Assembly (NCBI RefSeq): GCF_004114975.1
Contig: NZ_CP030052.1
Coordinates: forward strand, 372,001-436,000
Direction of reading: 5' to 3'
Source: Bradyrhizobium guangdongense
GTDB taxonomy: Bacteria; Pseudomonadota; Alphaproteobacteria; Rhizobiales; Xanthobacteraceae
DNA: 64,000 nt
Of this stretch, positions 34,180-49,936 are shown piece after piece. The position numbers and the translations under genes were made by a program. Positions within the stretch are counted from its first letter, which is position 1. Each line of letters starts with the position of its first letter. Below the pieces are notes generated by a model, which worked only from the letters and a program-made list of their open reading frames with translations, ran no database searches and was not told the origin of the DNA.

Positions 34180-34188
34180 TTGCCGCCT

Positions 34189-35601
34189 CTATGCGTGCGC
34201 GAGCTTGCGAACGTCGGTGATGACACCCGTCACGGCGGCCGCCGCCACCGATGCCGGACTTGCAAGATGCGTGCGGCTATTTGGTCCTTGGCGATGCTCG
34301 AAGTTGCGATTAGAGGTCGCCATGCAGCGCTCACCTGGCGCGACTTGGTCGTCGTTGATCCCCAGACACATTGAACACCCGGCCTCTCTCCAGTCGAAGC
34401 CTGCATCGAGAAATACTTTGTTTAGACCGAGGGCCTCAGCCGCGCGCTTGACCGACGTCGATCCAGGCACAACCAGCGCCCGCACGCCTTTGGCGACCTT
34501 GCGCCCCTTGACGATGGCCGCTGCCGCCTGAAGGTCCGATAGGCGGCTGTTGGTGCAGGATCCAATGAAGGCGACGTTGATCGGAATGCCTTCAAGAGGC
34601 TGATTAGGTTTGAGGCCGATATAGTGCAGCGCCTGCTCCGCCATGGCGCGACGGACAGGATCGCCAATCAACACGGGATCTGGGATGTTTTCGTCGATAC
34701 CTACGACATCGCCAGGTGTTGTCCCCCACGTCACCTGGGGGGCAATCTCGCTACAGTTAACCCTGATTTCCTTGTCGAAGAGAGCTTGCTCGTCTGTGTT
34801 AAGAGTGCGCCACTGATCTAATGCGGCCTGCCAATGCGCACCTTTGGGAGCATAGTCGCGGCCAGCGATATATTCATACGTGGTATCGTCCGGCCCGATC
34901 ATGCCAGCACGTCCACCAAATTCAATGGACATGTTGCAGATCGTCATCCTGCCTTCCATGGACATCGCACGAATGACGGGTCCGCAATATTCGATGGCAT
35001 ATCCGCGCGCCGCCTGTGTTCCCTCTTTGCCGATCAAGTAAAGTATGAGGTCCTTGGCACAGACATCCTTTCCCAGACGTCCGGCGAACGTCACCCGTAG
35101 CGCCTTTGGCTTGCGCTGAAGTACGGTTTGGGTTGCTAGAACGTGCTCGACATCGCTTGTGCCAAAACCCCACGCATAGGCACCGAGCGCGCCATTTGTT
35201 GGTGTATGGCTGTCTGCGCAAACAACAGTCATCCCTGGCGTGATAAGCCCGAGCTCCGGCGCCACGACGTGTTCGATACCCTGCCTGGCATCAGCCAAGT
35301 CAAACAGCTCAATTCCGTGTTCGCTGCAGTTCCGTTCCATCAAGGTGATTAGCTCGCGCCCCTCGGGGTTCGAATCGACCGTGCGCCCAGGACGTGTCGA
35401 AACGATGTGATCCGTGACACCGAAAGTGAGATCAGGTCGACGCACAGATCGCGAGGCGCGCCGTAGCCCATCAAATGCTTGTCCGCTCGCCGATTCCTGG
35501 ATGATGTGGCGATCGACATAGAGCAAGAAGACGCCGTCACCCATTTCCCGGATGACATGACTGTTCCAGATCTTTTCAAAGATAGACCGCGGTTGGATCA
35601 T
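34189..35601 (-). CDS. LeuC-type (aconitase-family) hydratase large subunit, copy 1
   Basis: 470 aa from ATG 35601 (MIQPRSIFEKIWNSH); an upstream ATG at 35628 is less likely. It carries a 4Fe-4S cluster: the cysteines are in FIGSCTNSR and in AGCSMC. Other motifs: VDRHIIQE, VCADSHTPTNGALGAYAWGF, ICNMSIEFGGRAGMI, TSNRNFEHRQG and HLASPASVAAAAVTG. The family contains isopropylmalate isomerase, maleate/citraconate hydratase and dimethylmaleate hydratase. Location in a catabolic cluster with an aldolase upstream suggests a maleate- or citraconate-type hydratase rather than leucine synthesis. Copy 2 is at 47064-48473. Regulatory motif A lies about 100 bp upstream. Confidence 0.88.
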   Translation of the reverse strand: MIQPRSIFEKIWNSHVIREMGDGVFLLYVDRHIIQESASGQAFDGLRRASRSVRRPDLTFGVTDHIVSTRPGRTVDSNPEGRELITLMERNCSEHGIELFDLADARQGIEHVVAPELGLITPGMTVVCADSHTPTNGALGAYAWGFGTSDVEHVLATQTVLQRKPKALRVTFAGRLGKDVCAKDLILYLIGKEGTQAARGYAIEYCGPVIRAMSMEGRMTICNMSIEFGGRAGMIGPDDTTYEYIAGRDYAPKGAHWQAALDQWRTLNTDEQALFDKEIRVNCSEIAPQVTWGTTPGDVVGIDENIPDPVLIGDPVRRAMAEQALHYIGLKPNQPLEGIPINVAFIGSCTNSRLSDLQAAAAIVKGRKVAKGVRALVVPGSTSVKRAAEALGLNKVFLDAGFDWREAGCSMCLGINDDQVAPGERCMATSNRNFEHRQGPNSRTHLASPASVAAAAVTGVITDVRKLAHA

Positions 35602-35701
35602 GTTACACCATGGCCGAGTTGCTCCCACGCTAAGAGCGGGTAGGCTTCACGCCAATTGCGTGATCGGCGACACCGGTCTTGATGCAGGAGGAGCTCGTCG
35701 A

Positions 35702-35718
35702 CTAGTAAGAAATTGCAA
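35702..35718 (-). promoter_or_regulatory. Shared regulatory motif, site A (before leuC1)
   Basis: CTAGTAAGAAATTGCAA on the plus strand, so TTGCAATTTCTTACTAG in the direction of leuC1, ending about 100 bp from its start. It is 16/17 identical to site B (45143-45159) and close to C, D and E. It probably binds a common regulator. Confidence 0.6.
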
Positions 35719-35772
35719 TTTCGAGCGGATGAGGGCTTATGGTCCGGTCGCCCACTTTTTGATATTTAGTCC

Positions 35773-36582
35773 TTACCCCTTCAGGCCCGATGCACCGGTA
35801 ACACGGGACGGCTCTCGACTGAGCAGTCGAAACTTCTCAACCCAAGACTTGGCCTGGAACGCCAATGCGCGAGCGTCAGTGGAAAGCGTGACGAATCGAA
35901 AGCCACGCGTGACCATGCGCCACGCTTGTTCGGGACCAGGTGCGAAAATGCCTGCAATCAGACCCTTCTTAATGCACCCCTTCAAAACGCGATCGATGGC
36001 AGCGTCCACCTCGGTATCAAACTCCTCCAGCTGCGGCTTCCTGTTCAGGGACAGCGAGAGATCGCCTGGTCCGATATAGACACCATCCAGACCTGGCACA
36101 TCAAGAATACTCTCGATGTTGGCGACGGCTTCAGCGGTTTCAATCATAGCGATGACGCTGAGCTCCCGGTTCGCATGCGCAGCATAGTCCTCGCCATAGG
36201 CCGTCGCCGCACGGACGGGGCCTAAGCTGCGCTGGCCCATCGGTGGATATTTGCAATATTGGACGAGGCGCTCAGCGTCCGCTGCCGTGTTGACCATAGG
36301 GCATGTCACACCAAGAGCACCTGCATCAAGCGCTTTCATGATGATTGCCGGGTCGAGCCAGGGGATGCGTACCAACGGGAGCACGTCCACGGCCGTAATG
36401 GCTTGTAGCATCGCGACGGCGGCATCGTACCCGATGAGACCATGCTGCAGGTCAAGCGTGATTACGTCGAAGCCTTGTCGAGCATAAAGTTCTGCCGAAA
36501 ACGCATCGGGGATCGCGCAATAGCCGTTCAGTAAATGGCCATTTTCGGCCATGCGGCGATTTAGTCCTCGAAAGGGGGCCAT
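35773..36582 (-). CDS. HpcH/HpaI-family aldolase
   Basis: 269 aa, class II metal-dependent aldolase that releases pyruvate from 4-hydroxy-2-oxo acids, or acts on related hydroxy acids. Motifs: GYCAIPDAFSAELYARQGFD; TLDLQHGLIGYDAA with the catalytic His-type motif; PLVRIPWLDPA; ALGVTCPMVNTAADA; MIETAEAVANIESI with metal Glu; and YIGPGDLSLSLN with metal Asp. It lies upstream of leuC1 on the same strand (gap 171 bp containing site A). A hydratase-then-aldolase order is chemically sensible for a pyruvate-yielding pathway. A weaker copy of the motif (36770-36787) lies upstream. Confidence 0.92.
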   Translation of the reverse strand: MAPFRGLNRRMAENGHLLNGYCAIPDAFSAELYARQGFDVITLDLQHGLIGYDAAVAMLQAITAVDVLPLVRIPWLDPAIIMKALDAGALGVTCPMVNTAADAERLVQYCKYPPMGQRSLGPVRAATAYGEDYAAHANRELSVIAMIETAEAVANIESILDVPGLDGVYIGPGDLSLSLNRKPQLEEFDTEVDAAIDRVLKGCIKKGLIAGIFAPGPEQAWRMVTRGFRFVTLSTDARALAFQAKSWVEKFRLLSREPSRVTGASGLKG

Positions 36583-36833
36583 AAGGAAGCTTTCTTTGCT
36601 GTGAATATGACGACTGGCCTCGATATCCTGTTGACGGCTGCTGGCATCGGAATGTCGTCGACGCCGCGCGCAACAAGTACACCACTGACCGCGTGATCAC
36701 TTGACTGCTCCGATTGCGCCGGCAACCGCGCCTTGTTGTGCGCCGGAGCGGATTAGACCCTCAAGAACTCTAGACAAGCTTTTGCAAAAGGTCTGTCGCC
36801 AGTGGCGAACTTCTCATGCGCTCGATTTGCCAG

Positions 36834-37226
36834 CTAGCTGGTGGCTACCGCAACATAGCGCTTTGGCGTCACGCCGTGGACACGCTTGAAGTGCTTCGTG
36901 AAGTGACTTTGGTCAACGAAACCGACCTCGTAAGCTACTTGTGCCGCTGGCTCTCCCTGAAGAAGAAGATCAGCGCCGCGCGCGACGCGCCGTTTTATCA
37001 GATAGGCATGGGGCGTTACTCCCAAATCTCTTCGGAATGCCCTAATCAGTTGAAAGATACTTGCGCCCGTCTGACGCTCAAGATCGCGAAGCGTAATCCT
37101 GATCTCAGGGCTCTTCTTAATAAACGCGAGCGCAACTTCTGTAATGCTTCCGTCAGGGTCGCCGGGCGGAGCAGAGAATGCGTCTGCCGATACGACTGCC
37201 GTTTCCATCCCACAAGTCATGTCCAA
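36834..37226 (-). CDS. Short AraC-family DNA-binding protein
   Basis: 130 aa. Only the AraC/XylS double helix-turn-helix is present: ITLRDLERQTGASIFQLIRA, FRRDLGVTPHAYLIKRRV, and PAAQVAYEVGFVDQSHFTKH with FKRVHGVTPKRY. No effector domain. The frame stays open upstream to a TAG near 37344 with coding-like sequence but no ATG or GTG (a TTG at 37232 is the only other option). It may be a naturally short MarA/SoxS-type regulator or the remains of a longer one. It is divergent from the LysR gene and upstream of the aldolase gene. Confidence 0.8.
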   Translation of the reverse strand: MDMTCGMETAVVSADAFSAPPGDPDGSITEVALAFIKKSPEIRITLRDLERQTGASIFQLIRAFRRDLGVTPHAYLIKRRVARGADLLLQGEPAAQVAYEVGFVDQSHFTKHFKRVHGVTPKRYVAVATS

Positions 37227-37359
37227 CTCTTGCTGCAGTGGACGAGTTTCATCGCGGGGCTGAGGATGAAGGCGATCAGCATGCCGCGCAAAGCAAGTTA
37301 ACTGATGACTTGCATGAGTTTTTGCGATATAAGCGAAAACCTAGGGAGAATAATGGGTT

Positions 37360-38235
37360 ATGGGCCAATACTTGCCCATGAATGCGCTACGAGCCTTCGA
37401 TGCTGCGGCGCGTCATGGCAATTTCAGTCGAGCGGCGGAAGAGCTTTGCATTACCCAAGGGGCCGTCAGCAGGCATATCGCGGTACTTGAGACCCACCTC
37501 GGAATAAAGTTATTTGTTCGTAAGCATCGTCGCATCGAACTGACGGAAGAGGCTCGACGATATCATAAGCGGCTTCAGGTTGCGTTTGACGAGATAAGGT
37601 CCGCGACGTCCGAGATCTGCGCGTCGTCAAAACACAATGTCCTAAAGCTTAGGTGTTTACCCACCTTTGCCATGCGCTGGTTGATCCCTCGCCTCGCGAG
37701 GTTTCGCGAGCAATATCCGCAGGTGGAAATTCAGGTCTCAACCTCACAACAATCCCCTGCCAATTTTGAAGCGCAAGGCATCGATGCCTCGATCGAGTAC
37801 GGATTGGGCCAGTGGCCTGGGCTCGAGGCCAAACATCTGTTCGACGAACTGCTCATCGTCGTATGCGGCCCCAAGCTTGCGAATGGAATGCCGGTCCCGC
37901 GCTATCCGCACGAACTCGATCATCACGTTCTTCTCCATTCCTTGCAGCGCCCGGATTTTTGGCGGCAATGGCTCCAGACTGCAGGCGCGCCGCAGGTCCC
38001 GGCCAACACGGGCCTACGATTTGAAAACTCGGGGCTCGCGTGCCAAGCAGCTATCGACGGCCTTGGTATTGCAATTGTGCATCTTCCCTTGATTGAAAGG
38101 GATCTCGAAACCGGCCGACTGATCGCACCGTTCAATCTCATTGTCCGCAACCAGATGGCATTCTATCTCGCTTATCCAACCGAAAAGAGCGATTTGCCGG
38201 CACTTGTCGCGTTCCGCGCAATGGCTGCTCGGTGA
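37360..38235 (+). CDS. LysR-family regulator, GcvA type
   Basis: 291 aa. N-terminal winged HTH (MNALRAFDAAARHGNFSRAA, EELCITQGAVSRHIAVLETH, LGIKLFVR) with the GcvA-like RxIELTEEARRY wing. The C-terminal periplasmic-binding-like effector domain has LKLRCLPTFAMRWLIPRLAR, DASIEYGLGQWPGLEAKHLF and ENSGLACQAAIDGLGIAI. It is divergent from the AraC gene and precedes the Liv transporter genes on the same strand, so it is a candidate regulator for the surrounding catabolic units. Confidence 0.93.
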   Translation: MGQYLPMNALRAFDAAARHGNFSRAAEELCITQGAVSRHIAVLETHLGIKLFVRKHRRIELTEEARRYHKRLQVAFDEIRSATSEICASSKHNVLKLRCLPTFAMRWLIPRLARFREQYPQVEIQVSTSQQSPANFEAQGIDASIEYGLGQWPGLEAKHLFDELLIVVCGPKLANGMPVPRYPHELDHHVLLHSLQRPDFWRQWLQTAGAPQVPANTGLRFENSGLACQAAIDGLGIAIVHLPLIERDLETGRLIAPFNLIVRNQMAFYLAYPTEKSDLPALVAFRAMAAR

Positions 38236-38505
38236 GGCGGCGGCAACCGTCAGATCCATCGATCTGAAATGGACGGGAAAGAAGCGACTCTCAGCCCCGG
38301 ACATGGACCTTGTGACATCCGCGTAATATAGCGTGAGCAGCCCTTAACTGGTCTGCCCTCCGCGACCTGCGACTAACAGTCCCGGCGTCCCGCAAGATTA
38401 TACAAGAATGCACTCCTCTAATGCCCTCTATCTGGGCCGAACGATGGGCGCAGTCGTCGCCTTGCTTGCGGCGCATGGCGGTGCACAAATAGGGGGACGG
38501 AAACA

Positions 38506-39695
38506 ATGAAGCGCTTCAGCTTGCTGGCCTTCGCGGCGGTTCTTGCCTCACTGTCCATTTCTACAGATGCGCATTCTGCCGAGGTCAAGATCGGCATCAT
38601 CGGCTCTTTTAGCGGCCCCTATGCCGAGTGGGGCGTCCAATTCAAACGAGCCGTTGACCTCTATGTCGAGAAGCACGGAGGAAAGCTTGGAGGCCACACC
38701 GTTGAGGTCCTCTATCGTGATTCTGGCGGCCCAAATCCCGCTCGAGCGAAACAACTCGCTCAAGAGCTGATCACCCGAGAGGGGGTACAATTTCTCGGCG
38801 GTATGGACTTCACGCCTAACGCGGTAGCCGTTGCCGATGTTGTGACGCAAGCGAAAATTCCCTTCGTCATTTTCAACGCAAATACCGCAGATACCACACG
38901 TAAATCGCCATATTTTTTAAGAGTGGGCTGCACCATCTGGCAATTGGCGTATGGCATCACGCGCTATGCTATTGATCAGGGCAAGAAGAAAGCTGTTGTC
39001 TTTGCCGTCGACTACGCCCCCGGTCACGACGCAATTGCAGCTTATGATGCCAATTACGGCAAGCTCGGCGGCAAGATCGTCGATGTCGTAAAGGTGCCTT
39101 TGGATACAACTGACTTCTCCAGCTACTTCCAGCGGCTGCAGGACGCGAACGCTGACGTTCTATTTACGTTCGTCCCGAACGGGCCCATCTCCGTTGCACT
39201 GTTCAAAGGGTATTTCGAGCGCGGCTTGGCACAACGGGGCTTGCAGTACTTTGGCCTCGGTGAAACCGAGGAGGCACCCCTCGCGGCATTGGGACAAACC
39301 GGCGAACTGGCCATCGGTGTATATTCCTCTCTCTTTTATGGTCCTCATTCGCCAGAAAGCACCGCGAATAAGGAGTTCGTCAATGCGCTGGAAGCAAAAT
39401 ACGGGAAGGGCGCCATACCTAATATCGGGACCGTTGAGGCGTGGGACGGCATACACCTGATCGCCCATATGACCGAAGCAACCGACGGGAAACTTGATGG
39501 TGAAAAAGCCTTGGCGGCCGCCAAAGGGTACTCCTGGGAGAGCCCGCGCGGATCGATCCGGTCGAACGGGACCTGATCCAAAACGTCTATATCCGAAAGG
39601 TCGAGAAGATCGACGGCGTCCTCGTAAATAAACAGGTCGCCGTAATTCCGAATCTCAAAGATCCCTGGAAGGAGGCCAATCCTGCCTCGCGCTGA
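38506..39695 (+). pseudogene. LivK-like ABC binding protein, frameshifted near its end
   Basis: Signal peptide (LLAFAAVLASLSISTDAHSA), then a type I periplasmic fold: VKIGIIGSFSGPYAEWGVQF, GGMDFTPNAVAVADV, VFAVDYAPGHDAIAAYDANY, FFGPHSPE-like loop. The frame stops at 39576 after GYSWESPRG. A different frame carries the expected end (RIDPVERDLIQNVYIRKVEK, PNLKDPWKEANPASR, stop 39693-39695), so a small indel near 39550 removes about 40 C-terminal residues. First gene of the branched-chain-type transporter operon. A shortened protein may still fold partly, so loss of function is probable but not proved. It could also be a sequencing error. Confidence 0.82.
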
Positions 39696-39816
39696 CGACG
39701 TTTAGGCGCGCGAAAATAGGGGAGTAGAATCAGGCCGCATGACTCCAGGCCAATGCGGCGGGACGTAATGGCCATTGGCAGCATGCTTGTGATGCAGGCG
39801 GTGTTTGAGGGATCAA

Positions 39817-40689
39817 GTGAATAGCTACTGGACGACGGGTATATCGCTTTTGATCGACGGCCTGTCCTTCGGGATGATCCTCTTTCTGATCTCCTCTGGC
39901 CTGACGATCACGCTCGGCGTGATGCGTCTTCTAAACATTGCACATTGTGGTTTCGCCATGATCGGCGGTTACACTGCACTCTCGCTCGTCAATCATTTTG
40001 GCCTGGGTTTGCTCGCCGCGCTTCCGATTGCTGTTGCAATCACGGCGATACTCGGGGCCATTCTTGAACGGACCGTATATCGATGGATCTATGAGACGAG
40101 TGCTCTCGGTCAAATCCTGATGACAATTGGCCTCACATTCATAATGATCGCCTCGATCAACGCCGGTTATGGCTCGCTGACGCATACATTACCAACGCCT
40201 GAATTCCTGGCGGGAGCATGGCATTTTGAAGAGATATCGATTTCTGCTTACCGTAGCTTTCTTTCAATCGTCAGCCTGACAATCGCAGGCCTGATTTGGT
40301 ACGTCATCGAACAGACCGATTTTGGCGCCCGCTTGCGCGCCTCCGTCGATAATCCGCGCATGGCTCGCTGTGTCGGGATCAATGTGCGGCGGGTGTTCGC
40401 TCAGACCTTCGTTGCTGGGTGCGCGTTAGCGGCCATAGCCGGCGTACTTGGAACGCAGATGCTGCCGCTGCAGCCATACTATGCCACGAACTATATGGTC
40501 ATGGTTTTGATCGTCGTTGCGGTTGGCGGCTTTGGCAGTCTCAAAGGATCGCTTATCGCCGCGCTCGGCTATAGCATCTTCGATACCTATTTTCGCTATC
40601 TCTTTCCGGCGGCCGGCGCTTTCGGCATCTACATTCTTCTGGCCCTCATTCTGTCCATTCGACCTTTTGGGCTTTATGGCCGTGCTTAA
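39817..40689 (+). CDS. LivH-type ABC permease
   Basis: 290 aa from GTG 39817, which has GAGGGA 4-10 bp upstream; a TTG at 39805 is less likely. Inner-membrane permease with about eight segments. Family motifs: SLLIDGLSFGMILFLISSGL; TLGVMRLLNIAHCGFAMIGG; DNPRMARCVGINVRRVFAQT (cytoplasmic loop contacting the ATPase); and VVAVGGFGSLKGSLIAALGY. Overlaps livM by 14 bp. Liv-type systems import amino acids, amides or aromatic acids; the catabolic neighbours suggest an aromatic or dicarboxylic substrate. Confidence 0.92.
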   Translation: MNSYWTTGISLLIDGLSFGMILFLISSGLTITLGVMRLLNIAHCGFAMIGGYTALSLVNHFGLGLLAALPIAVAITAILGAILERTVYRWIYETSALGQILMTIGLTFIMIASINAGYGSLTHTLPTPEFLAGAWHFEEISISAYRSFLSIVSLTIAGLIWYVIEQTDFGARLRASVDNPRMARCVGINVRRVFAQTFVAGCALAAIAGVLGTQMLPLQPYYATNYMVMVLIVVAVGGFGSLKGSLIAALGYSIFDTYFRYLFPAAGAFGIYILLALILSIRPFGLYGRA

Positions 40690-41695
40690 GGTAACTCCCT
40701 CAAAGGACACACCTAAACGGGACATCGCCGCGTCCTTTGGATCCCACCGCTTGGGACTTAGCGATGCGCTGGTGTGGGCGCTTGCAATTTTCGCTTATTT
40801 CTTCTTGGGCGCCTATCACCAGCTCGGCACCCAAGTCATCATCATGATCATCTTGGCTCTGTCGCTCGATCTCGCCATCGGTTACTCTGGAATCGAAAGT
40901 TTAGGTCATGCCGTCTTTTTTGGTATCGGAGCCTACGCCGCCGCCCTTTTTGCGCTCAATGTTTTATCTGAACCCTTGACCGGCCTTGTGGTAGGAGGGC
41001 TAGCTGCCGGCGCGTTCGGCTTCGTCACGGGTTTGCTGGTTCTTCGTGTTCGCGGCTTGACTCAAGTCATCCTCACGATCGCCATTGGTGCCGTCGTCCT
41101 CCAAGTTGCGACAACCTGGAAATCAGTAACGGGCGGAGATGATGGCCTTGCGGGGTATCAGGTCGCACCCATCTTGGGACGTTACTCGTTCGACCTCTAT
41201 GGCCATACTGCCTATCTCTATTCGCTTTGCGTGCTGGCCTTCGTGTTTGCCCTTGCCCGGATCTTGGTAAACTCGCCATTTGGATATGTTCTGCGTGGGA
41301 TACGCGACAACGACCAACGCATGCGCATGCTAGGCGTACCGGTCGCCGCACGGTTGCTTCTCATCTATTCGATTTCGGCAGCAATAGCGGGTGTGGCCGG
41401 TGCAATTTCCGCACAAGTCACCGGGCTTGTCGCAACCGACTCACTCTCATTCCTGCTATCCGGAAACGTCCTCATCATGTTGCTAATCGGCGGGATGGGG
41501 CGCCTGACCGGCGCATTCATTGGGGGCATTATTTTCGTCATTTTTTCTGATCGGGCCGCGGCGATAGACCCCTTCAATTGGTTGTTTATGCTGGGTGGAC
41601 TCCTCATTCTCGCCGTCAGGTTTACACCTCAAGGCGTTGGTCCCTGGATTGATCGTATGGGTGGCTATCTCCTCGATCGCAGGCGGAAACCATGA
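40676..41695 (+). CDS. LivM-type ABC permease
   Basis: 339 aa from ATG 40676 (MAVLKVTPSKDTPKRDIAAS), overlapping the livH end. About nine membrane segments. Motifs: IMIILALSLDLAIGYSGIES; LGHAVFFGIGAYAAALFAL; GLLVLRVRGLTQVILTIAIG; the EAA-like loop GIRDNDQRMRMLGVPVAARL; and IGGMGRLTGAFIGGII. Its stop overlaps the livG start (ATGA). Confidence 0.93.
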   Translation: MAVLKVTPSKDTPKRDIAASFGSHRLGLSDALVWALAIFAYFFLGAYHQLGTQVIIMIILALSLDLAIGYSGIESLGHAVFFGIGAYAAALFALNVLSEPLTGLVVGGLAAGAFGFVTGLLVLRVRGLTQVILTIAIGAVVLQVATTWKSVTGGDDGLAGYQVAPILGRYSFDLYGHTAYLYSLCVLAFVFALARILVNSPFGYVLRGIRDNDQRMRMLGVPVAARLLLIYSISAAIAGVAGAISAQVTGLVATDSLSFLLSGNVLIMLLIGGMGRLTGAFIGGIIFVIFSDRAAAIDPFNWLFMLGGLLILAVRFTPQGVGPWIDRMGGYLLDRRRKP

Positions 41696-42447
41696 ATGAT
41701 ACGGTCCTCGAAATCGTCGGTCTGCACAAAAGCTTCGGTGCTCTCGCCGTCACGCGTAATATCAACTTCCGCCTTGAGATTGGTGCAAGACACGCTCTGA
41801 TTGGTCCGAATGGCGCAGGAAAGACCACCCTTGTAAATCTCATCACGGGAGCGTTGGCTCCATCCTCTGGGTCGATCCGACTTGAAGGACGTGACATCAC
41901 ACGGTATTCGCCGCAACGCCGAGTCTCTCTGGGGCTCGCGCGAACGTTTCAAATAAACTCGCTATTCCCGTCCATGACGGTGGTCGAAAATATTGCCCTC
42001 GCGGTCGTTGCAAATATGCATATCGACGCAAAACTGTGGGGCGCGCTCAATAGGCGCAAGCAGGTTCTGATCGAACTCGAGCGGCTCCTAGACGTTTTTA
42101 ACCTCAGTGGTTCGGCATGCCAATTGATTTCCAATCTCGCATATGGTCAACGGCGGCTCGTTGAGCTCGCGCTGGCGCTGGCTCTCAAGCCAAAGGTGCT
42201 CATTCTCGACGAACCTGCTGCTGGCTTGCCGAAAGAAGACAGCGGAAAACTTTCGGAATTGCTGCGGCGGTTGCCCGCCGACCTCGCAGTCATCGTCATC
42301 GAGCACGACATGCAGATCGTTTTTGGTTTCGCTGACCGTATCACGGTGTTGGCAGAGGGAAGCGTGCTGACGCAGGGAACCCCGTCCGAGATTCGAGCAG
42401 ATGCTAAGGTACGAGAGGTTTACCTCGGACAGGCGCGCAATGACTGA
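41692..42447 (+). CDS. LivG-type ABC ATPase
   Basis: 251 aa. Walker A GPNGAGKTT, Q-loop ARTFQINSLFPSM, signature LAYGQRRLVELALAL, Walker B LILDEPAAGLPKED, switch His IVIEHDMQIVF. The signature LSxGQ reads LAYGQ, as is common in LivG. It overlaps livM by 4 bp and livF by 8 bp and pairs with LivF as the ATPase heterodimer. Confidence 0.93.
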   Translation: MNDTVLEIVGLHKSFGALAVTRNINFRLEIGARHALIGPNGAGKTTLVNLITGALAPSSGSIRLEGRDITRYSPQRRVSLGLARTFQINSLFPSMTVVENIALAVVANMHIDAKLWGALNRRKQVLIELERLLDVFNLSGSACQLISNLAYGQRRLVELALALALKPKVLILDEPAAGLPKEDSGKLSELLRRLPADLAVIVIEHDMQIVFGFADRITVLAEGSVLTQGTPSEIRADAKVREVYLGQARND

Positions 42448-43147
42448 TTTGCTGAGACTGGAAGCTGTCACCGCAGGATATGGCTATGGCGCCGCGGCTA
42501 TTGAAAACGTGGCTCTTTCGCTCCCGAGAGGGTCGTCATTGGCCGTGTTGGGACGCAATGGTGTCGGCAAGACGTCCCTGCTTGCGACCATTATGGGCCT
42601 AACGCAAATGGCCTCCGGCAAGATCACATTTGACGGCGGCGAGATCGGAGGCATCGATACCTACGAGCGGGCTCGCCTGGGCCTCGGTTACGTGCCTCAG
42701 GAACGAGAGATCTTTCCTTCCCTGACGGTAGAGGAAAACCTTTCCGTTGCAAGGGTTGATCGGGGAAAGTGGAACATTGAATCCGTGTTTGAGCTATTCC
42801 CCCGGCTTGCTGAGCGACGGCAGAACTTCGGAAATCATTTGTCGGGTGGAGAGCAGCAGATGCTGGCTGTCGGCCGAGCGCTCGTCAGCAATCCCGCTTT
42901 GCTTATTCTCGACGAGCCGTTCGAAGGATTGGCTCCGGTCATTGTTGACCAGCTTGTGGAAGCGCTCAAACGCATCAGAAAAGAAAGCGATATGACGTTT
43001 ATCCTCGTAGAACACCATGTTGATCTAGCGCTGTCACTAACGGTCCAGGCCCTAATTCTGGATCGAGGCCAAGTGGTTTGGAACGGCAAAAGCAACGATC
43101 TGGCGGGCAATAAGTCCGTTCTATCGAGCCTCGTTGGCATCAGCTAG
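42440..43147 (+). CDS. LivF-type ABC ATPase
   Basis: 235 aa from ATG 42440 (MTDLLRLEAVTAGYGYGAAA); an upstream in-frame start at 42401 lies deep in livG. Walker A GRNGVGKTS, Q-loop YVPQEREIFPSL, signature LSGGEQQMLAVGRAL, Walker B LILDEPFEGLAP, switch His LVEHHVDLAL. Last gene of the Liv operon; a small hairpin follows the stop. Confidence 0.93.
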   Translation: MTDLLRLEAVTAGYGYGAAAIENVALSLPRGSSLAVLGRNGVGKTSLLATIMGLTQMASGKITFDGGEIGGIDTYERARLGLGYVPQEREIFPSLTVEENLSVARVDRGKWNIESVFELFPRLAERRQNFGNHLSGGEQQMLAVGRALVSNPALLILDEPFEGLAPVIVDQLVEALKRIRKESDMTFILVEHHVDLALSLTVQALILDRGQVVWNGKSNDLAGNKSVLSSLVGIS

Positions 43148-43164
43148 GGAGGTAGACGACCTCC
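43148..43164 (+). terminator. Short hairpin after livF
   Basis: GGAGGT (43148-43153) pairs with ACCTCC (43159-43164), loop of 5 nt, directly after the stop. No T run, so it may only be a weak terminator or a 3'-end structure between the convergent livF and SDR genes. Confidence 0.3.
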
Positions 43165-43201
43165 GATTACATACCTACCGGCAACGATACCAGTGCCGAG
43201 G

Positions 43202-43981
43202 TTACGGTACGGGACAATTGCCTCCATCGACATTAATGGCTGTTCCCGTTACGAACGAGGCTAGGTCCGAGGCTAGAAAGCAGGCCACATTCGCAACCTC
43301 GGTCACAGTTCCAAGCCGACCGAGACGCACGCTCTTTCCTTTCTGCAAAACGAAGTCTTCGTAGCTCGCTTGCGGTGCGGTGGACCGGTGCATTCGTTTC
43401 CACTGGTCGGTTTCGATCGATCCAAGGCAGATGGCGTTGATAAGGACGTTATCCGGCGCGCATTCGTTAGCCAGCAGCTTCGTCATGGATAGGCCGGCCG
43501 CCCGGCTCAGCGCCGACGGAGCGGCGCCGGTACCGGCCTTTGCCGCAATGCTGAGAATATTGACAACTCGTCCCCAGCGTCTTGCTCGCATTCCAGAGAG
43601 GCAACGCTGAGTTAAGTAAAGTGCCCCTCCGACTTTCAGCATGAAATCGGACTGGAGTGCGTCCCACTCAACTCCCGATATTGGCTCGTGGGCAGCGTTG
43701 CCTGCGTTGTTAACGAGGACGTCAACATGACTGAAGTCGGGGGAGAGCCTCGACCAGGCCTGGTCAATCTGCAATTTGTTTCCGAGATCACATGAGATTC
43801 CAATCACGCGCTGACCGGTTGTGCTACTTATCTGGTCGGCGGTATCACTCACTTGTTGTTTATCTCGGGCGAGAATTGCAACAGAAGCGCCGGCCTCGGC
43901 GAACGCCAGAGCTATCGCTCGGCCAATGCCTCGGCTTCCGCCCGTTACGATTGCGGTTCGGCTTTTCAGCGAAATCTGCAC
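43202..43981 (-). CDS. SDR-family oxidoreductase with altered active site
   Basis: 259 aa Rossmann-fold protein. The cofactor motif TGGSRGIGRAIALAFAEAG is intact; an R at the end of beta-2 (LARDKQQ) suggests NADP. NNAG and NILSIAAK (catalytic Ser) are present. The YxxxK pair is replaced: the aligned segment reads APSALSRAAG, so Tyr becomes Ser and Lys becomes Arg. C-terminal GTAINVDGG is normal. Either a divergent SDR with other chemistry or a non-catalytic member. It is 72 bp downstream of the lyase gene on the same strand, so probably co-transcribed. Confidence 0.85.
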   Translation of the reverse strand: MQISLKSRTAIVTGGSRGIGRAIALAFAEAGASVAILARDKQQVSDTADQISSTTGQRVIGISCDLGNKLQIDQAWSRLSPDFSHVDVLVNNAGNAAHEPISGVEWDALQSDFMLKVGGALYLTQRCLSGMRARRWGRVVNILSIAAKAGTGAAPSALSRAAGLSMTKLLANECAPDNVLINAICLGSIETDQWKRMHRSTAPQASYEDFVLQKGKSVRLGRLGTVTEVANVACFLASDLASFVTGTAINVDGGNCPVP

Positions 43982-44053
43982 TAAACTATCCTTGCTTGCT
44001 CTAGCACCGAGATTTCCATCGCAGCAGTCCGAAAATGCGGAACCGCGGACGAG

Positions 44054-45001
44054 TTACGTGGCGGGCGCAGAGGCCTGGGACCGGGCAACTTTGTCGAGCG
44101 CCTGCCAGTCTCGAAGTCCGACCGCCTCAGCAAAGGCCGCGCGAGCCGCCGGAAAATCGGCCAGTGCCGGGAGAGGGGACCCGTCGGCCGTGGACAACAA
44201 CAACCCTGCGAGCGCGCTCGCCATCGCTTCTGTGGTCCGCAGCATCAAATAACTCGGATAAGCGATAAGATCGTAGCCCATCACAAAGAGATCTTGTGCC
44301 CGCGGCAGTTGCGCTTTCCCATCTTCAGTTAGGGCAAGCAGCTGGTGTTTCCCCCGGAAGGCACTCCCAACCGTCACGAGATCGTCATGTGCTTTCAATC
44401 CTGGAATAAATACACCATCCGCGCCCGCGGCTAAGCTGCGCTCCGCTCGCTTTAGGGCGCCATCTAGGCCAAGCGTTGTTAAGGAGTCCGTGCGGGCGAT
44501 AATCAACATGTCGCCTGAACTGCGGGCATCAACAGCTGCCCGAAGCTTTGTTTCGAATTCTGCCATCGCGACAACAGCAGGAGCAGGATTATCGCCGGGT
44601 TGCTTGCTCGGGCGAGCCTGGTCCTCCAGGATCACGGCGCCAACACCAAGCGCCTCGTACGCGCGGATCATGCGAACAACGCTCTTGATGTCACCGTAGC
44701 CGTCATCGCCATCGGTGATGAAGGGTAGATCGGAGGCCGCCGCAATATCCTGAATACCGGCGACCATCTCGCCAAGCGCCGCAATGCCTAGGTCCGGCAA
44801 CCCGTAACGGGCAGCAAGCATTGCCGACCCACCAATTGCAAACGCTTTGAACCCAGCCCGCCCTATCAGCCGGGCGGCAAAAGCATCTTGAGCAACCGGA
44901 AGGACGAGCGGTCGTCCGGCTTCCATGACCTTGCGCAGAGGAATACGAGCTTTCAAAAGACACCCAATGATGCGAGTACGGCAACGACGCGAGTCCGACA
45001 A
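44054..45001 (-). CDS. PEP-mutase/isocitrate-lyase superfamily lyase
   Basis: 315 aa TIM-barrel protein. Family motifs: GRPLVLPVAQDAFAARLIGR; FAIGGSAMLAARYGLPDLG; ITDGDDGYGDIKSVVRMIRA (metal-binding Asp cluster); VGAVILEDQARPSKQPGDNP; and IIARTDSLTTLGLDGALKRA. The family includes 2-methylisocitrate lyase, 2,3-dimethylmalate lyase, oxaloacetate decarboxylase and PEP mutase. The KKCGH catalytic loop of C-C lyases is not present; after EDQ the sequence is ARPSKQPGDN. Beside LeuCD-type hydratases it is a good candidate for a citramalate- or dimethylmalate-type cleavage yielding pyruvate, but the altered loop leaves the reaction open. Site C lies about 105 bp upstream. Confidence 0.87.
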   Translation of the reverse strand: MSDSRRCRTRIIGCLLKARIPLRKVMEAGRPLVLPVAQDAFAARLIGRAGFKAFAIGGSAMLAARYGLPDLGIAALGEMVAGIQDIAAASDLPFITDGDDGYGDIKSVVRMIRAYEALGVGAVILEDQARPSKQPGDNPAPAVVAMAEFETKLRAAVDARSSGDMLIIARTDSLTTLGLDGALKRAERSLAAGADGVFIPGLKAHDDLVTVGSAFRGKHQLLALTEDGKAQLPRAQDLFVMGYDLIAYPSYLMLRTTEAMASALAGLLLSTADGSPLPALADFPAARAAFAEAVGLRDWQALDKVARSQASAPAT

Positions 45002-45105
45002 CCGTGAAAGCGGTTAGTGAAGGTCGCTCCAGTGCAGAAGACCATCGTTGGACTCAGCACGTTTCATAAAGCACGTGTACTATCAACCGACAGGCGCCGG
45101 CATCA

Positions 45106-45121
45106 CTAGGAGAAAATTGCA
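45106..45121 (-). promoter_or_regulatory. Shared regulatory motif, site C (before the lyase gene)
   Basis: CTAGGAGAAAATTGCA on the plus strand, 105-120 bp upstream of the lyase start. 15 of 16 bases match site D. The AGGAG inside it is not a ribosome-binding site, because the genes it precedes are on the minus strand. Confidence 0.55.
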
Positions 45122-45142
45122 CGATGGGCTGCCCCGATAGCA

Positions 45143-45159
45143 TTGCAATTTCTTGCTAG
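45143..45159 (+). promoter_or_regulatory. Shared regulatory motif, site B (facing the SDR gene)
   Basis: TTGCAATTTCTTGCTAG on the plus strand, the inverted orientation of site C 22 bp away. 16 of 17 bases match site A. The pair points in both directions of the divergent region; the SDR start is about 390 bp away. Confidence 0.55.
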
Positions 45160-45550
45160 CGGATCAGCGCCTAAAACCCTGTACTCGCGCAAAATCCTGT
45201 GGCGACACGGCGGGCCTCAGGGCTAGTACTGCTCAAGCCAGAGGAGAACGTCGCACTCTTCTTTCATGGACGAGGTCGCATGACGAGTGGCCACCTTAGC
45301 TAGCCAAAGGGTGCGCCATGCCATAGTGCACTCAGCCAAGCGCGTGGTCTCTTGGTTCGCTGGGTCAGTGTCCGACGTGACGACATGGAGTAGATCTCGA
45401 CAGGCGCCAAGGCCGGTCGAGCCTGGCCTTTTACTCAACCGAGCTCGCAAGGCACACATCTGGGCAGCTCAGACTAATGTTGCGTCCCGATGCGTGTGGC
45501 CGGTTCTGTCAACAATCCCATTCAATCGACCAGACACGGAGACTTCCACG

Positions 45551-46375
45551 ATGACAGGACACACCAAACAGGAGCCTCGCCTGGCGGGAGGCGAAGATGC
45601 GTCCCTCCGGGGCAAGGTTGCGATCGTAACGGGCGCAAGCCGAGGCATCGGTGCTGCCATTGCGCTCGAGCTCGCGCAAGCAGGCGTCGATTCCGTTATC
45701 GTCGCCCGGGATGAGGCCATGCTCAACAGCGTTGCCGAACGCGCACGATCATTTGGAACAAGGGTAGAGGTCGTTGCTGGCGACCTGCGAAACGTGGAAA
45801 CCGTTTCCTGGACGATCGACCGGGCCTTGGCCGCTTTTCAGAAGATTGATATTCTTGTCAACAACGCCGGTGCGACCACGCGGGGGCACTTCCTGGAGCT
45901 GCCCGATAGTGATTGGGAGGATGGTTTCGGCCTAAAATTCTTTGGTGCAATGCGCCTCTGTCGGGCGGCCTGGCCTACACTTGTTCAGACGAGTGGATCC
46001 GTCGTGAATATCGCCGGTGCAGGCGGCCGAACACCCGACATCTATTTCGCTATCGGTTCGCCAGTGAATGCCGCACTCAATAGTTTCAGCAAATTCCTCG
46101 CCGAGCTTGGCATTAGGGACGGCGTGAGGGTCAATTGTATCAATCCCGGCTTGGTGAGGACAGACAGATTGACAAAGCGCCTGACGCTGGAGAGCCGCGA
46201 ACGACGCATCGACCCTGCCGAAATGGAATATCAGCTCAGCCGCGAGTTGCGCATTGCGCGAATCGGCGAGCCTGAGGATATCGCGGCGCTGGTTAGATTT
46301 GTCTTGTCAGATCGCGGTCGTCTCCTGCAAGGGGCTGCTATCGATGCGGATGCAGGTCTGACAAAAACGCTTTAG
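45551..46375 (+). CDS. SDR-family oxidoreductase
   Basis: 274 aa from ATG 45551 (MTGHTKQEPRLAGGEDASLR). Cofactor motif TGASRGIGAAIALELAQAG; VARDEA (NADP-type Arg); DLRNVE; NNAGATTRG; VVNIAGAGG. Where YxxxK is expected the sequence is AIGSPVNAAL, so Tyr and Lys are replaced by Gly and Asn, a variant seen in some SDR subgroups. C-terminal INPGLVRTDR is normal. Convergent with leuD2 (38 bp apart). It may oxidise or reduce a hydroxy-acid or ring intermediate, but its reaction is not readable. Confidence 0.85.
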   Translation: MTGHTKQEPRLAGGEDASLRGKVAIVTGASRGIGAAIALELAQAGVDSVIVARDEAMLNSVAERARSFGTRVEVVAGDLRNVETVSWTIDRALAAFQKIDILVNNAGATTRGHFLELPDSDWEDGFGLKFFGAMRLCRAAWPTLVQTSGSVVNIAGAGGRTPDIYFAIGSPVNAALNSFSKFLAELGIRDGVRVNCINPGLVRTDRLTKRLTLESRERRIDPAEMEYQLSRELRIARIGEPEDIAALVRFVLSDRGRLLQGAAIDADAGLTKTL

Positions 46376-46413
46376 ATTCGCCTAACCGCGCAACTCTGGT
46401 TCGTCGGCCCCAC

Positions 46414-47046
46414 TCAGGGAGAATGCCGAGGTTCAGGTCGCGCGTATAACCAGGGCTGGCACGCTCGGCTCTTCTGCTGGAAGTCCTCAATGTCGGCGAC
46501 GAATCTTAGCGTTTGACCAATCTCGTCGAGGCCCTCTAGCAGCGTTGCGCGACGGGCAGTTGGAATGTTAAAAGCGATTGTCCTGTCGTTCGGTAATTCG
46601 ATGGTGCAGCTTTCGAGATCCACCGACATCGTCGGATCGTTCGTGGTCGCCAGGTGGTGATGGATCTCATCAACCTCTGCCTGCGGTAACGTGACGAGTA
46701 GCAGCCCGTTCTTGAACGAGTTTTCGTAAAAAATGTCGCCAAAGGTGGGTGCAATCACGCAGCGAATACCGAACCGTACCAGGGCCCAAACCGCGAACTC
46801 GCGGGAGCTGCCACAACCAAAATTGGCTCCCGCAACAATAACTTTGCTCTTGCGAAAGGGGGCGCGGTTCAAGATAAAGTCCGGCACCTCTTGGCCTTGC
46901 AGATCATACCGCCAGATCGCAAACAGGCCTTCCCCCGGATTGCTCTTCAAGCTGCGTTGCCAAGCGACCGAAATGATCGCGTCTGTATCGATGTTAGGGC
47001 GCGGGAAACTGGCCGCGACACCCTCGACACGTGTGTATTTCTCCAT
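46414..47046 (-). CDS. LeuD-type hydratase small subunit, copy 2
   Basis: 210 aa from ATG 47046 (MEKYTRVEGVAASFPRPNID). Intact swivelling domain: [82 protein letters not shown]. 17 bp downstream of leuC2, so one transcript. Same small-subunit type as the broken copy 1. Together with LeuC2 it should form an aconitase-family hydratase; maleate/citraconate hydratase is proposed from context. Confidence 0.9.
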   Translation of the reverse strand: MEKYTRVEGVAASFPRPNIDTDAIISVAWQRSLKSNPGEGLFAIWRYDLQGQEVPDFILNRAPFRKSKVIVAGANFGCGSSREFAVWALVRFGIRCVIAPTFGDIFYENSFKNGLLLVTLPQAEVDEIHHHLATTNDPTMSVDLESCTIELPNDRTIAFNIPTARRATLLEGLDEIGQTLRFVADIEDFQQKSRACQPWLYARPEPRHSP

Positions 47047-47063
47047 ACGAATTCTCCGGCGGC

Positions 47064-48473
47064 CTAGGTTAAGTACCTTCTGACGTCCGTTACCGCCCCG
47101 GCAATCGCAGCGGCGGCCACCGAGGCGGGACTGGCTAGGTGGGTGCGACTCTTTTGGCCTTGGCGCCCCTCGAAATTGCGGTTCGACGTAGAGATGCAAC
47201 GCTTACCGGGTCCTACAAAGTCATCATTGATGGCGACGCACATGGAACATCCGGCCTCCCGCCACTCAAACCCAGCTTCCAGGAAGACTTTGTCGAGCCC
47301 CAGAGATTCAGCGGCATGTTTAACCTGCGCTGAGCCGGGTACCACAAGCGCGCGTACATGCGAAGCGACCTTGCGCCCCCGCACGACTTCGGCGGCAGCC
47401 TCTATATCGGAAAGGCGGCTGTTGGTGCATGAACCGATAAACGCCACGTCGACGGTGAGCCCTTCGAGAGACTGACCGGCCTCAAGACCGAGATAAGTCA
47501 GCGAACGGTCCATTGCGGCGCGACGCGCAAGGTCGTTAACCGCCGCGGGATCAGGAATCGGATCGCTGACGCTGCCAACATCCTCGGGGGTCGTCCCCCA
47601 GGTGACCTGCGGGCCGATGCTCGTGCAATCAACATCGACCTCTCGATCGAAAACCGCTTCTGGGTCGGTCGGGAGCGAACGCCAGTAAGCCAATGACTGT
47701 TCCCACATTTCTCCCTTGGGCGAATAAGGCAGATCGTGGAGATATTCGAATGTGACGTCATCGGCAGCTATAAGTCCAGCTCTCGCACCGAACTCGATCG
47801 ACATATTGCAGATGGTTTGGCGTTCTTCTATCGACAAAGACCGTATGACGCTGCCGGCATATTCCACAGCGTAGCCACGTCCCGCCGCAACGCCGATCTG
47901 ACCAATCAATCTCAAAATGAGATCCTTGGCGTATACCCCTCGGTTGAGCTTGCCTTCGAAATTGATACGCATGCGTTTCGGCCGCCGCTGGACGATTGTC
48001 TGGGTCGCGAGCACATGCTCCACCTCGCTGGTGCCAATGCCCCAAGCCCAACAACCAAGTCCTCCACACGTTGCCGTATGGCTGTCGCCGCATACCAGTG
48101 TTGTGCCGGGCAAGACGATGCCGAGCTCAGGTGCGATTACATGGACAATGCCTTGCCGAGGATCGTCAACATCAATGAGTTCAATCTTATGAGCCTGACA
48201 ATTTTCACGTAACAGCTGCACGAATTCCCGACCACCAGCGAACGTCTCTCCCGTACGACCTTTCGCCGTGGAAAGGATGTGATCGACAACAGCATAGGTC
48301 AGTTCGGGATTACGGGTCTTGCGGCCAGCACGCTTCAAGCCCTCGAAGGCGGCAGCCGATGTGCATTCATGAACCATGTGCCGGTCCACATGAAGAAGAA
48401 ACACGCCATCTTCAATCTCCCGGATAACATGCGACAGCCAGATCTTGTCGAACAGAGTTTCGCTGTTTGCCAT
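47064..48473 (-). CDS. LeuC-type hydratase large subunit, copy 2
   Basis: 469 aa from ATG 48473 (MANSETLFDKIWLSHVIREI). Motifs as in copy 1: VDRHMVHE; VCGDSHTATCGGLGCWAWGI; ICNMSIEFGARAGLI; 4Fe-4S cysteines in FIGSCTNSR and AGCSMC; TSNRNFEGRQGQ; HLASPASVAAAAIAG. By eye clearly a diverged paralogue of copy 1, so probably an ancient duplication rather than a recent one. Lies downstream of the ring-cleavage dioxygenase gene on the same strand. LeuCD-type maleate hydratases (HbzIJ) act after gentisate cleavage in Pseudomonas alcaligenes, a good precedent. Confidence 0.9.
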   Translation of the reverse strand: MANSETLFDKIWLSHVIREIEDGVFLLHVDRHMVHECTSAAAFEGLKRAGRKTRNPELTYAVVDHILSTAKGRTGETFAGGREFVQLLRENCQAHKIELIDVDDPRQGIVHVIAPELGIVLPGTTLVCGDSHTATCGGLGCWAWGIGTSEVEHVLATQTIVQRRPKRMRINFEGKLNRGVYAKDLILRLIGQIGVAAGRGYAVEYAGSVIRSLSIEERQTICNMSIEFGARAGLIAADDVTFEYLHDLPYSPKGEMWEQSLAYWRSLPTDPEAVFDREVDVDCTSIGPQVTWGTTPEDVGSVSDPIPDPAAVNDLARRAAMDRSLTYLGLEAGQSLEGLTVDVAFIGSCTNSRLSDIEAAAEVVRGRKVASHVRALVVPGSAQVKHAAESLGLDKVFLEAGFEWREAGCSMCVAINDDFVGPGKRCISTSNRNFEGRQGQKSRTHLASPASVAAAAIAGAVTDVRRYLT

Positions 48474-48789
48474 GGCGCTAATCGACTTGTCCCAAGGGGC
48501 TTGAATTCTCACGAGGTGAGCGAGCCGTACACGAGCTTTGGGAAGTTAAGAACCTCGGACATTGCCCAATAGGAGAAAATTGCAAACACCCCTTTTGCCC
48601 GGCTAGCAAATCGATGCTGTGCGTCAGATGCGCTTAAGTACTCGCGGTCCACGCAAAATAGAACGATCGGCCTGCATCAGGCCTGCGCTATCTACAAGAG
48701 CAACTTTCTGGAAACGCGGAGCGAGCCAACGGGTATTGCCTGCGCAAACAACTACGCCGGGCACAACGATTGCAAGAGGCGAAAGCTGC
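48474..48789. other. Intergenic region between dioxygenase and leuC2 genes
   Basis: About 316 bp on a common minus-strand direction. It contains site D. The gap is large enough for a separate leuC2D2 promoter. No gene recognised. Confidence 0.5.
48569..48585 (-). promoter_or_regulatory. Shared regulatory motif, site D (before leuC2)
   Basis: ATAGGAGAAAATTGCAA on the plus strand, 96-112 bp upstream of the leuC2 ATG on the opposite strand. Same orientation and spacing as sites A and C. Confidence 0.55.
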
Positions 48790-49860
48790 CTATTGACGTC
48801 CGTTCGGATGATCTTCTTGGCGAGCCAAACCGAAAGGTTCCAATATAGGCTGATCGCTTGTCCGGAACAGAATCGATTTCTCATACGCAATATATTCGCA
48901 CCACGACCAAGCCGGCTCTGCGATCACATCGCGCTCTGACCATTCGTGCTTGACGCCATCGATAATGGTGGCACCGCTTCCCTTCGCAACAACACAAAGA
49001 CTACTCGATGTGCGTCGTCGTGCCTTCGAGTGGAAGCCTTTACGGAATCCGTTCACGTGACAGGCGATTGTCGGCATGACATGCCCACCCGTGATAGGAT
49101 TTACGTATTCGTAAACGACACCCTCGTACGGGTCATCATCGTCGCGGTCCAGTCCGGCTTGTATCATTGCTTCGGCGGCAGCCCATTTGTACACCAACTG
49201 GGGCGAGGCCGGCGGTTGCGCGCGCGTCCGACCTTGTAGCATTCCGAGCGCGCCAATATCTTCGTAAGAGCCCACAGTATTGGTATAGGGTTCTAAGGAT
49301 TTGCTAGGATGCATCTCGAAACAATCGGCTCGCATGTATGAAACGAATGGGGTATCGAGCGCATCGAACCAAACCATTGGCTCCGTCCCGCCATTGTGCG
49401 CGTGACTATGCCAGCACCCTCCAGGCGTGAGCAAAAGATCAAGCTCGTGCATATCCGCGCGCGTGCCATCGACGACCGTGAACGCACCACTTCCCGACAA
49501 GATGAAGCGCAGCGCTGAATAGGTGTGCCGGTGCGCCGGTGCGACTTCGCCAGGTAGGATCATCTGCAACGCGCCATTGAGCGTAGGCGTTGCTGCTGCG
49601 GACCGTGGCATCCCGGGATTCTCAAACAGAAGAATTCGGCGCTCAGTGCCCGGCCCGGCCAATGATGTCTTAACAGCTTCCTCGAACTCAGCGTGCAAGT
49701 CGCGCCACCGCCATACATGGCCGCGCGCCTTGTAGCCCATCTCTTCGGCGACCCCGCTGGTATTCCAGATGGGAATGATACTCAGCCGCTTCATACGATC
49801 GGCCCGCTCGGCTGTGGGATCGGCATGTTTCGGATCTGGCTGAGCCGTGCTGTTCGACAT
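48790..49860 (-). CDS. Gentisate/salicylate 1,2-dioxygenase-type ring-cleavage enzyme
   Basis: 356 aa bicupin, normal length. An Fe(II) enzyme that opens mono-aromatic rings carrying ortho OH/COOH. The N-terminal cupin has the iron ligands in PGEVAPAHRHTYSALRFILS (His-x-His) and in GGCWHSHAHNG. The second cupin near residues 270-340 (ACHVNGFRKGFHSKARRRTS, GATIIDGVKHEWSERD) has lost most ligands, as usual. WRWRDLHAEFEEA at the N-terminus is typical. The family also includes 1-hydroxy-2-naphthoate, salicylate and 5-nitrosalicylate dioxygenases, so the substrate is uncertain. GAGGAA precedes the ATG. Site E lies 61-76 bp upstream. Confidence 0.9.
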   Translation of the reverse strand: MSNSTAQPDPKHADPTAERADRMKRLSIIPIWNTSGVAEEMGYKARGHVWRWRDLHAEFEEAVKTSLAGPGTERRILLFENPGMPRSAAATPTLNGALQMILPGEVAPAHRHTYSALRFILSGSGAFTVVDGTRADMHELDLLLTPGGCWHSHAHNGGTEPMVWFDALDTPFVSYMRADCFEMHPSKSLEPYTNTVGSYEDIGALGMLQGRTRAQPPASPQLVYKWAAAEAMIQAGLDRDDDDPYEGVVYEYVNPITGGHVMPTIACHVNGFRKGFHSKARRRTSSSLCVVAKGSGATIIDGVKHEWSERDVIAEPAWSWCEYIAYEKSILFRTSDQPILEPFGLARQEDHPNGRQ

Positions 49861-49920
49861 TTTGGTTCCTCAACTTTAGTTCGAGCTTGCCGCCACGCTG
49901 CGGTTGATTAGACCTGCCGG

Positions 49921-49936
49921 CTAGCATGAAATTGCA
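49921..49936 (-). promoter_or_regulatory. Shared regulatory motif, site E (before the dioxygenase)
   Basis: CTAGCATGAAATTGCA on the plus strand in the 96-bp gap between the FAH gene and the dioxygenase gene. 15 of 16 bases match the inverted form of site B. It suggests an internal promoter or regulated start for the dioxygenase gene. Confidence 0.55.

Follow-up and report, generated by a model that had tools for sequence, protein, structure and literature searches.

Five oriented sites in a catabolic gene cluster on the symbiotic plasmid of peanut bradyrhizobia and their predicted recognition by a stand-alone AraC-family protein

The catabolic cluster and its five sites

The window analysed here, i.e. 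the whole 64,000-nucleotide stretch of Bradyrhizobium guangdongense DNA at positions 372,001 to 436,000 of contig NZ_CP030052.1 (C2:372001-436000 in the 8.44 Mb genome), holds a catabolic gene cluster in which five near-identical 16-bp sites stand in front of enzyme genes. Searching with the dioxygenase gene of the cluster, other genes having also been searched, located near-identical DNA on plasmids of 979-982 kb in Bradyrhizobium guangxiense, guangzhouense and guangdongense and in three CCBAU strains. The window lies on the symbiotic plasmid common to peanut bradyrhizobia, and the accessible part of a 2026 paper describes an identical symbiotic plasmid in all type II peanut strains (PMC13429744). 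The proposed targets, with enzyme names in the cluster based on Pfam and NCBIfam, are two aconitase-family large subunits, leuC1 (34189-35628, minus strand, RefSeq-derived start 35598) and leuC2 (47064-48512, minus strand, start 48473), a lyase of the isocitrate lyase/phosphoenolpyruvate mutase family (44054-45001, minus strand, start 44956), the short-chain dehydrogenase SDR2 (45287-46375, plus strand, start 45551) and a cupin ring-cleavage dioxygenase that is gentisate 1,2-dioxygenase-like, below the curated NCBIfam cut-off (48790-49860, minus strand). Three regulator genes accompany them, encoding a stand-alone AraC-family DNA-binding protein (36834-37226, minus strand), a divergent GcvA-like LysR protein assigned by Pfam (37360-38235, plus strand) and an IclR protein (55928-56932, minus strand).

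All five sites, when read toward their genes, take the form TGCAATTTYNTNCTAG, with the consensus TGCAATTT-Y-N-T-N-CTA(G/T), in which 12 of 16 columns are invariant. The pattern CTAGNANRAAATTGCA is matched exactly at 35702-35717 (plus strand), 45106-45121 (plus), 45144-45159 (minus) and 49921-49936 (plus), and with a single mismatch at 48569-48584 (plus). As candidate AraC-type boxes they read, in the same order and toward the gene in front, TGCAATTTCTTACTAG (minus strand, leuC1), TGCAATTTTCTCCTAG (minus strand, lyase), TGCAATTTCTTGCTAG (plus strand, SDR2, back to back with the box at 45106) and TGCAATTTCATGCTAG (minus strand, dioxygenase), with TGCAATTTTCTCCTAT at the single-mismatch site (minus strand, leuC2). 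Across the window, 14 matches were observed at three or fewer mismatches where 6.74 (standard deviation 2.46) were expected, and none of 100 shuffles reached 14. These five sites are the only matches in the whole genome at up to one mismatch; at up to two there are 25, with 19 for a reversed-pattern control, a level that is noise genome-wide. Compared across the ten pairs of sites, the flanking segments (25 + 25 bp) have 10-16 of 50 positions in common, no better than chance, as opposed to 12-15 of 16 within the sites, and the sites are therefore not a duplicated segment. No dyad is present in the five sites, the best centre giving 14 of 35 complementary cells, so that the motif is asymmetric.

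All five sites share one reading direction, toward the gene in front. In leave-one-out scoring of 18 upstream regions they reach 20.2-24.6, and the runner-up, SDR3, reaches 10.4; the three regulator genes, the ABC transporter, the fusion monooxygenase-hydrolase, FAAH1 and FAAH2 score no more than 6.6 in the gene direction. Distances from site to RefSeq-derived start are 60 bases for the dioxygenase, 95 for leuC2, 103 for leuC1, 149 for the lyase and 391 for SDR2 (127 to an upstream GTG), and SDR2 is the least certain target because its site at 45144 lies so far from that start. From these data we conclude that the five sites are a real operator set; the binding itself is predicted.

A sequence-only reading of the window had already located the five sites correctly, had taken them to suggest a cluster regulon and had proposed searching the whole genome for the motif. 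That search found the motif not scattered, with matches at up to one mismatch only in this cluster, and the restriction together with the common orientation supports the regulon. The letters of the two central sites had been swapped in that reading: the copy at 45106 (plus strand) is oriented like the others, toward the lyase, and it is the copy at 45144 (minus strand) that faces the SDR gene. Its spacing of 60-120 bp upstream holds for three genes (60, 95 and 103) but not for the lyase or SDR2. Among the weaker copies it listed, the one at 53432-53447 (TGCAGCTTTCCACTAT, plus strand, toward SDR3) is marginally plausible as a box and doubtful, about 8 of 300 shuffles equalling its score of 10.4; those at 36770 and 55588 need a longer spacer and gain no support from ungapped scoring. 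Near the latter, a better copy with two mismatches lies at 55619-55634 and points away from the hydrolase gene.

Within the genus (265 genomes), nine genomes have at least five matches at up to one mismatch among the matches listed; on the same count, the set is clustered in seven of them (G000, G047, G048, G147, G148, G149 and G264) and scattered in two (G055 and G209). Because all seven carry the same plasmid-type cluster, these close relatives are uninformative on conservation.

Other features of the cluster are recorded here as observations. The two leuC genes belong to leuC-leuD pairs within one catabolic cluster (33793-35628 and 46414-48512, both minus strand); the leuC copies are 61% identical, and leuD1, at only 128 residues, may be truncated. 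A flavin adenine dinucleotide (FAD) monooxygenase is fused to an alpha/beta hydrolase domain at 50929-53064 (minus strand), with 155 relatives at E <= 1e-60, the nearest public named one in B. macuxiense. At nine loci with relatives of this fusion at 37-39% identity (L230-L237 and L239), only weak ATPase and LysR matches were found beside the fusion gene, in L230 and L237, and exact matching, the only form of scan applied there, gave no CWAG-form copy of the motif.

The stand-alone AraC protein and its relatives

The AraC open reading frame encodes 130 residues from a TTG or 124-128 from an ATG and contains an intact AraC double helix-turn-helix domain and little else (Pfam HTH_18, 1e-21; HTH_AraC, 1.1e-14). 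It is thus a DNA-binding domain alone, with no sensor domain, and is separated by 133 bp from the start of the divergent LysR gene; MarA (1bl0) and SoxS (7w5w) are among its ten PDB matches. RefSeq misses araC on the peanut plasmid and instead annotates a hypothetical protein, WP_232995546.1, on the opposite strand (36834-37226 for the minus-strand gene; L115:32560-32985). A search with the protein, which sees relatives of similar length only, returned 53 at E <= 1e-15, of which 13 have a length of exactly 140 residues; many of the 53 are on short contigs, such that some may be fragments. Starts fall in a common region in an alignment of 22 of the 53 (one being the window's own protein), and P. 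sprentiae has an annotated AraC member of 125 residues. Given these short relatives and a 133-residue ortholog in genome G998, the idea that the gene is a dead fragment missing its N-terminal half was dropped.

Eight loci with other AraC relatives were compared, each picked by its protein match before its DNA was read. L262 (genome G998) and L264 (G926) are both of the non-self matches at E <= 1e-22 in 123 genomes; L268, L269 and L270 represent the top three different organisms in a list of plasmids; and L265, L266 and L267 come from a search using a short AraC relative. The form with CAAG for CTAG was admitted after inspection of G926, and under the original pattern such copies count as one mismatch. 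By this measure four of the eight loci are clear, having a copy at up to one mismatch either next to the AraC gene or within the same cluster; of the rest, one is degenerate and three are negative.

In G998, from another family of the class, the ortholog (48% identical) is divergent from a LysR gene whose product is 47% identical to the window's, in the same arrangement. Copies of the motif with one and two mismatches stand back to back in a divergent gap on the same contig, one of them directed toward a thiamine pyrophosphate-enzyme gene. None of 200 shuffles of this locus gives a match, and the one-mismatch copy is the best in the 5.9 Mb genome (seven matches at up to two mismatches; reversed control, five). 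In G926 the sole match at up to one mismatch in 4.2 Mb sits in the 54-bp gap between the AraC stop codon and a LysE gene (nine at up to two; control, four). L269 has TGCAATTTCGTACAAG 11 bp past the AraC stop and ahead of an EamA gene, and L270 has TGCAATTTTCTTCAAG 3 bp past the stop, each with one mismatch. The first recognition helix follows the same division: the window protein and those of the four clear loci have FQL[IV]R, that of L268 has YQLIR and those of the three negatives have SRFAT. The motif is associated with one AraC recognition helix in distant genomes.

Weighing the candidate binders

The sequence-only reading had left the regulator as one of the AraC, LysR or IclR proteins. 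Comparative footprinting now favours the AraC protein and argues against IclR and against LysR as the direct binder, and we put the probability that the protein encoded at 36834-37226 is the binder of the five sites at roughly 0.83. Several observations weigh against this assignment. At L268 the place that holds the motif elsewhere has only CGCAACTTTATCCAAA, with four mismatches, and L265, L266 and L267 have no match within two mismatches (L265 and L266 have a three-mismatch match inside the gene preceding AraC). AraC relatives outside G998 have CAAG and not CTAG. An exact CAAG-form match is found in a palindrome between sugar kinase and SorC-like regulator genes in other Bradyrhizobium, with no such AraC gene within 1.5 kb. 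In the window, leave-one-out upstream scoring gave no good box in front of araC or lysR, and inspection by eye gave no convincing position for a -10 element at the sites. Finally, the second half of the Escherichia coli marbox, TGYYAAA, has no counterpart, the motif having NTNCTAG in its place, and the boxes are therefore regarded as a related site type and not as marboxes.

The SorC-type promoter is an observation in its own right. The sequence TGCAATTTTTTGCAAG occurs at 1501-1516 in seven fetched Bradyrhizobium loci (L026, L035, L036, L041, L063, L075 and L079); in L035, the one locus inspected, it is half of a palindrome between the genes for an FGGY sugar kinase and a SorC-like (Sugar-bind) regulator, and this palindrome is probably the operator of that regulator. 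The sequence is therefore not exclusive to AraC, and an isolated match in other DNA is not necessarily a site for AraC.

The GcvA-like LysR protein could itself bind the five sites and activate the genes, an explanation we regard as improbable. Its relatives (41-47% identity) do stand beside leuC or leuCD-lyase genes in L210 (Mesorhizobium), L211 (Terrarubrum) and L253 (Paraburkholderia), and it is part of the conserved pair with AraC in G998. However, L211 and L253 contain no copy of the motif within three mismatches, and in L210 the three such copies within the locus all fall outside the LysR-leuC gap. The five sites have neither a dyad nor a T-N11-A offset in common, and the form given for GcvA sites in the accessible text of one paper is ATTAG-n5-CTAAT (PMC5002191). 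In G926 the motif adjoins the AraC gene, and tblastn, the sole search made for a LysR neighbour there, found none. The gaps of L253 and L210 hold CTAG, at a level judged to be chance. LysR is thus unlikely as direct binder and is attractive, from its position, as the controller of AraC.

The IclR protein was first suspected because TGCAAT is common to the motif and to a palindrome near its relatives, such that the motif would be half of an IclR operator. This is very improbable, even though 12 of the 14 plasmid loci with IclR relatives examined are in gentisate- or salicylyl-CoA-type neighbourhoods (L217 is not, and L225 is without annotation). A 17-bp palindrome, WTT...RYGCAAT, picked by eye, is present in promoter gaps of 11 of the 14 (L215, L217 and L229 not included), and a weak match to it (12.5 with an asymmetric matrix) overlaps the leuC2 box. 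The five sites, however, lack the other half-site, as well as the dyad expected of the published group 1 or group 2 type of IclR-family palindrome, and the palindrome is not in the window, where the best symmetric score is 13.7 against 15.6-25.5 for its own sites; only (Y)GCAAT is in common with the motif. In B. macuxiense the cluster encodes an IclR protein 70% identical to the window's, together with FAAH2 (74%), SDR3 (62%) and the fusion enzyme (57%), and no match to AraC, LysR, leuC or leuD was found in it. The surrounding 59.7 kb has no copy of the motif within two mismatches (four with three), and the whole genome is at background (19 matches; reversed control, 22).

The palindrome itself, in the gaps of L216, L218, L219 and L221-L228, is a candidate operator of that IclR group, and it resembles the group 1 form in the accessible text of one paper (PMC8222616). 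B. macuxiense has one strong match to it (18.5, position 125607 of C20), about 5 kb from a second IclR gene (35% identical). Its FAAH2 and fusion/cupin promoters (G912:C20) share TTGACAG and AT[AC]CATTCACGA, sequences that make up a candidate site for the IclR ortholog of this species; the pattern derived from AT[AC]CATTCACGA has five matches in the window where 5.14 are expected, which is not above chance.

An explanation by a regulator encoded elsewhere in the genome, or by a core promoter element, is just as improbable as binding by IclR. It draws on the fact that AraC binding is argued from sequence comparison and on the similar sequence within a SorC-type promoter elsewhere; against it stand the confinement of the sites to this cluster within the whole genome, the direction that all five share and the occurrence of the motif with AraC genes at four further loci. 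A core promoter or sigma-54 element as such was rejected, sigma-54 spacing being absent and the orientation wrong relative to the consensus.

Proposed mechanism and comparison with known systems

If the AraC protein is the binder, each 16-bp site would be an asymmetric, oriented operator for one AraC molecule, bound as a monomer. Of its two helix-turn-helix units, one would recognise TGCA(ATTT) and the other would recognise CTAG, which lies roughly a helical turn further downstream, in the manner of MarA and SoxS at the marbox. From its sites in front of leuC1D1, lyase-SDR1, SDR2, leuC2D2 and the ring-cleavage dioxygenase gene, AraC would activate all of them as one regulon, whose content looks like ring cleavage plus hydratases, a lyase and dehydrogenases. 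Since AraC has no sensor domain, its control presumably lies in how much of it is present, and the likely sensor that switches it on would be the divergent LysR protein; for such a SoxRS-like relay from LysR to AraC the chances seem to us about even. Comparison supports three points: the motif, the link between it and this type of AraC protein and, in one distant genome, the pairing of AraC with LysR. What we infer is the binding, the monomeric state, the activation, the control by LysR and the inducer.

The divergent pair is kept in one distant genome, G998, and the window gap has inverted repeats from which no shared LysR site has been defined. Those in the gap at 37208-37360 are GCAAGT-N9-ACTTGC and TTTTTGCGATATAAGCGAAAA, and they could be LysR sites. 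An evenly balanced possibility is that the protein descends from an AraC regulator with a ligand domain, which lost this sensor part, retained its DNA specificity and came under a divergent LysR. The outcome would be a SoxRS-like relay that governs catabolic genes as a regulon in two or more distant alphaproteobacteria, in one case from the symbiotic plasmid of peanut rhizobia. The accessible texts of the open-licence literature yielded no report of this operator or relay. If the proposal is true, an operator will have been tied to its regulator from sequence alone, with recovery of a regulator gene absent from public annotation, and a defined regulon is predicted on a plasmid common to peanut-nodulating Bradyrhizobium. 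The pairing of the helix FQL[IV]R with TGCAATTTYNTNCWAG would offer a rule by which targets could be found for many AraC proteins that now lack an assignment, and the AraC/LysR arrangement would be a case for the origin of SoxRS-type relays.

Among known systems, the AraC proteins of G926 and L269, which have a PF02311 ligand domain and are encoded beside LysE or EamA exporter genes, share the first recognition helix, FQL[IV]R, with the window protein, and their box departs from that of the window by a single letter (CAAG for CTAG). They differ in that the ligand domain is kept and in the position of the box, which closely follows the AraC gene itself and precedes the neighbouring one. XylS has a sensor domain, and XylS/Pm, with two direct repeats, differs from the one box per promoter and lack of a sensor domain seen here. 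The likeness lies in a TGCA first box, a second box further downstream and catabolic genes of aromatic type, the XylS boxes being TGCA and GGTA six apart (TGCA-N6-GGTA) in two direct repeats in the accessible text of one paper (PMC5481539). GenR-type IclR regulators of gentisate genes are alike in having an IclR gene in the cluster and gentisate-type ring cleavage. Their site is palindromic and the window motif is not; the IclR-family sites listed in the accessible part of one paper are mostly palindromes, with ATTCC-N7(5)-GGAAT for GenR (PMC8222616).

The MarA/SoxS marbox regulons of E. coli are alike in their stand-alone AraC DNA-binding domain and single box per promoter. They differ in having YYAAA as second box where the window has CTAG, and in serving a stress regulon rather than the catabolic genes of one cluster. 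The E. coli MarA and SoxS genes are paired with MarR or SoxR, whereas the araC gene of the window is paired with a divergent LysR gene. The five sites have the features of an AraC-type site, being asymmetric, with a GCA and, roughly one turn from it, a second box. MarA binds as a monomer in asymmetric, oriented complexes at the marbox, GCAHWWWWTGYYAAA, according to the accessible text of one paper (PMC6900184). That marbox and the window motif, GCAATTTYNTNCTAG, are both asymmetric and oriented, with a GCA and an A/T stretch, and GCAATTT of the motif fits the first seven marbox letters. The forward orientation of the boxes resembles that of MarA class II promoters.

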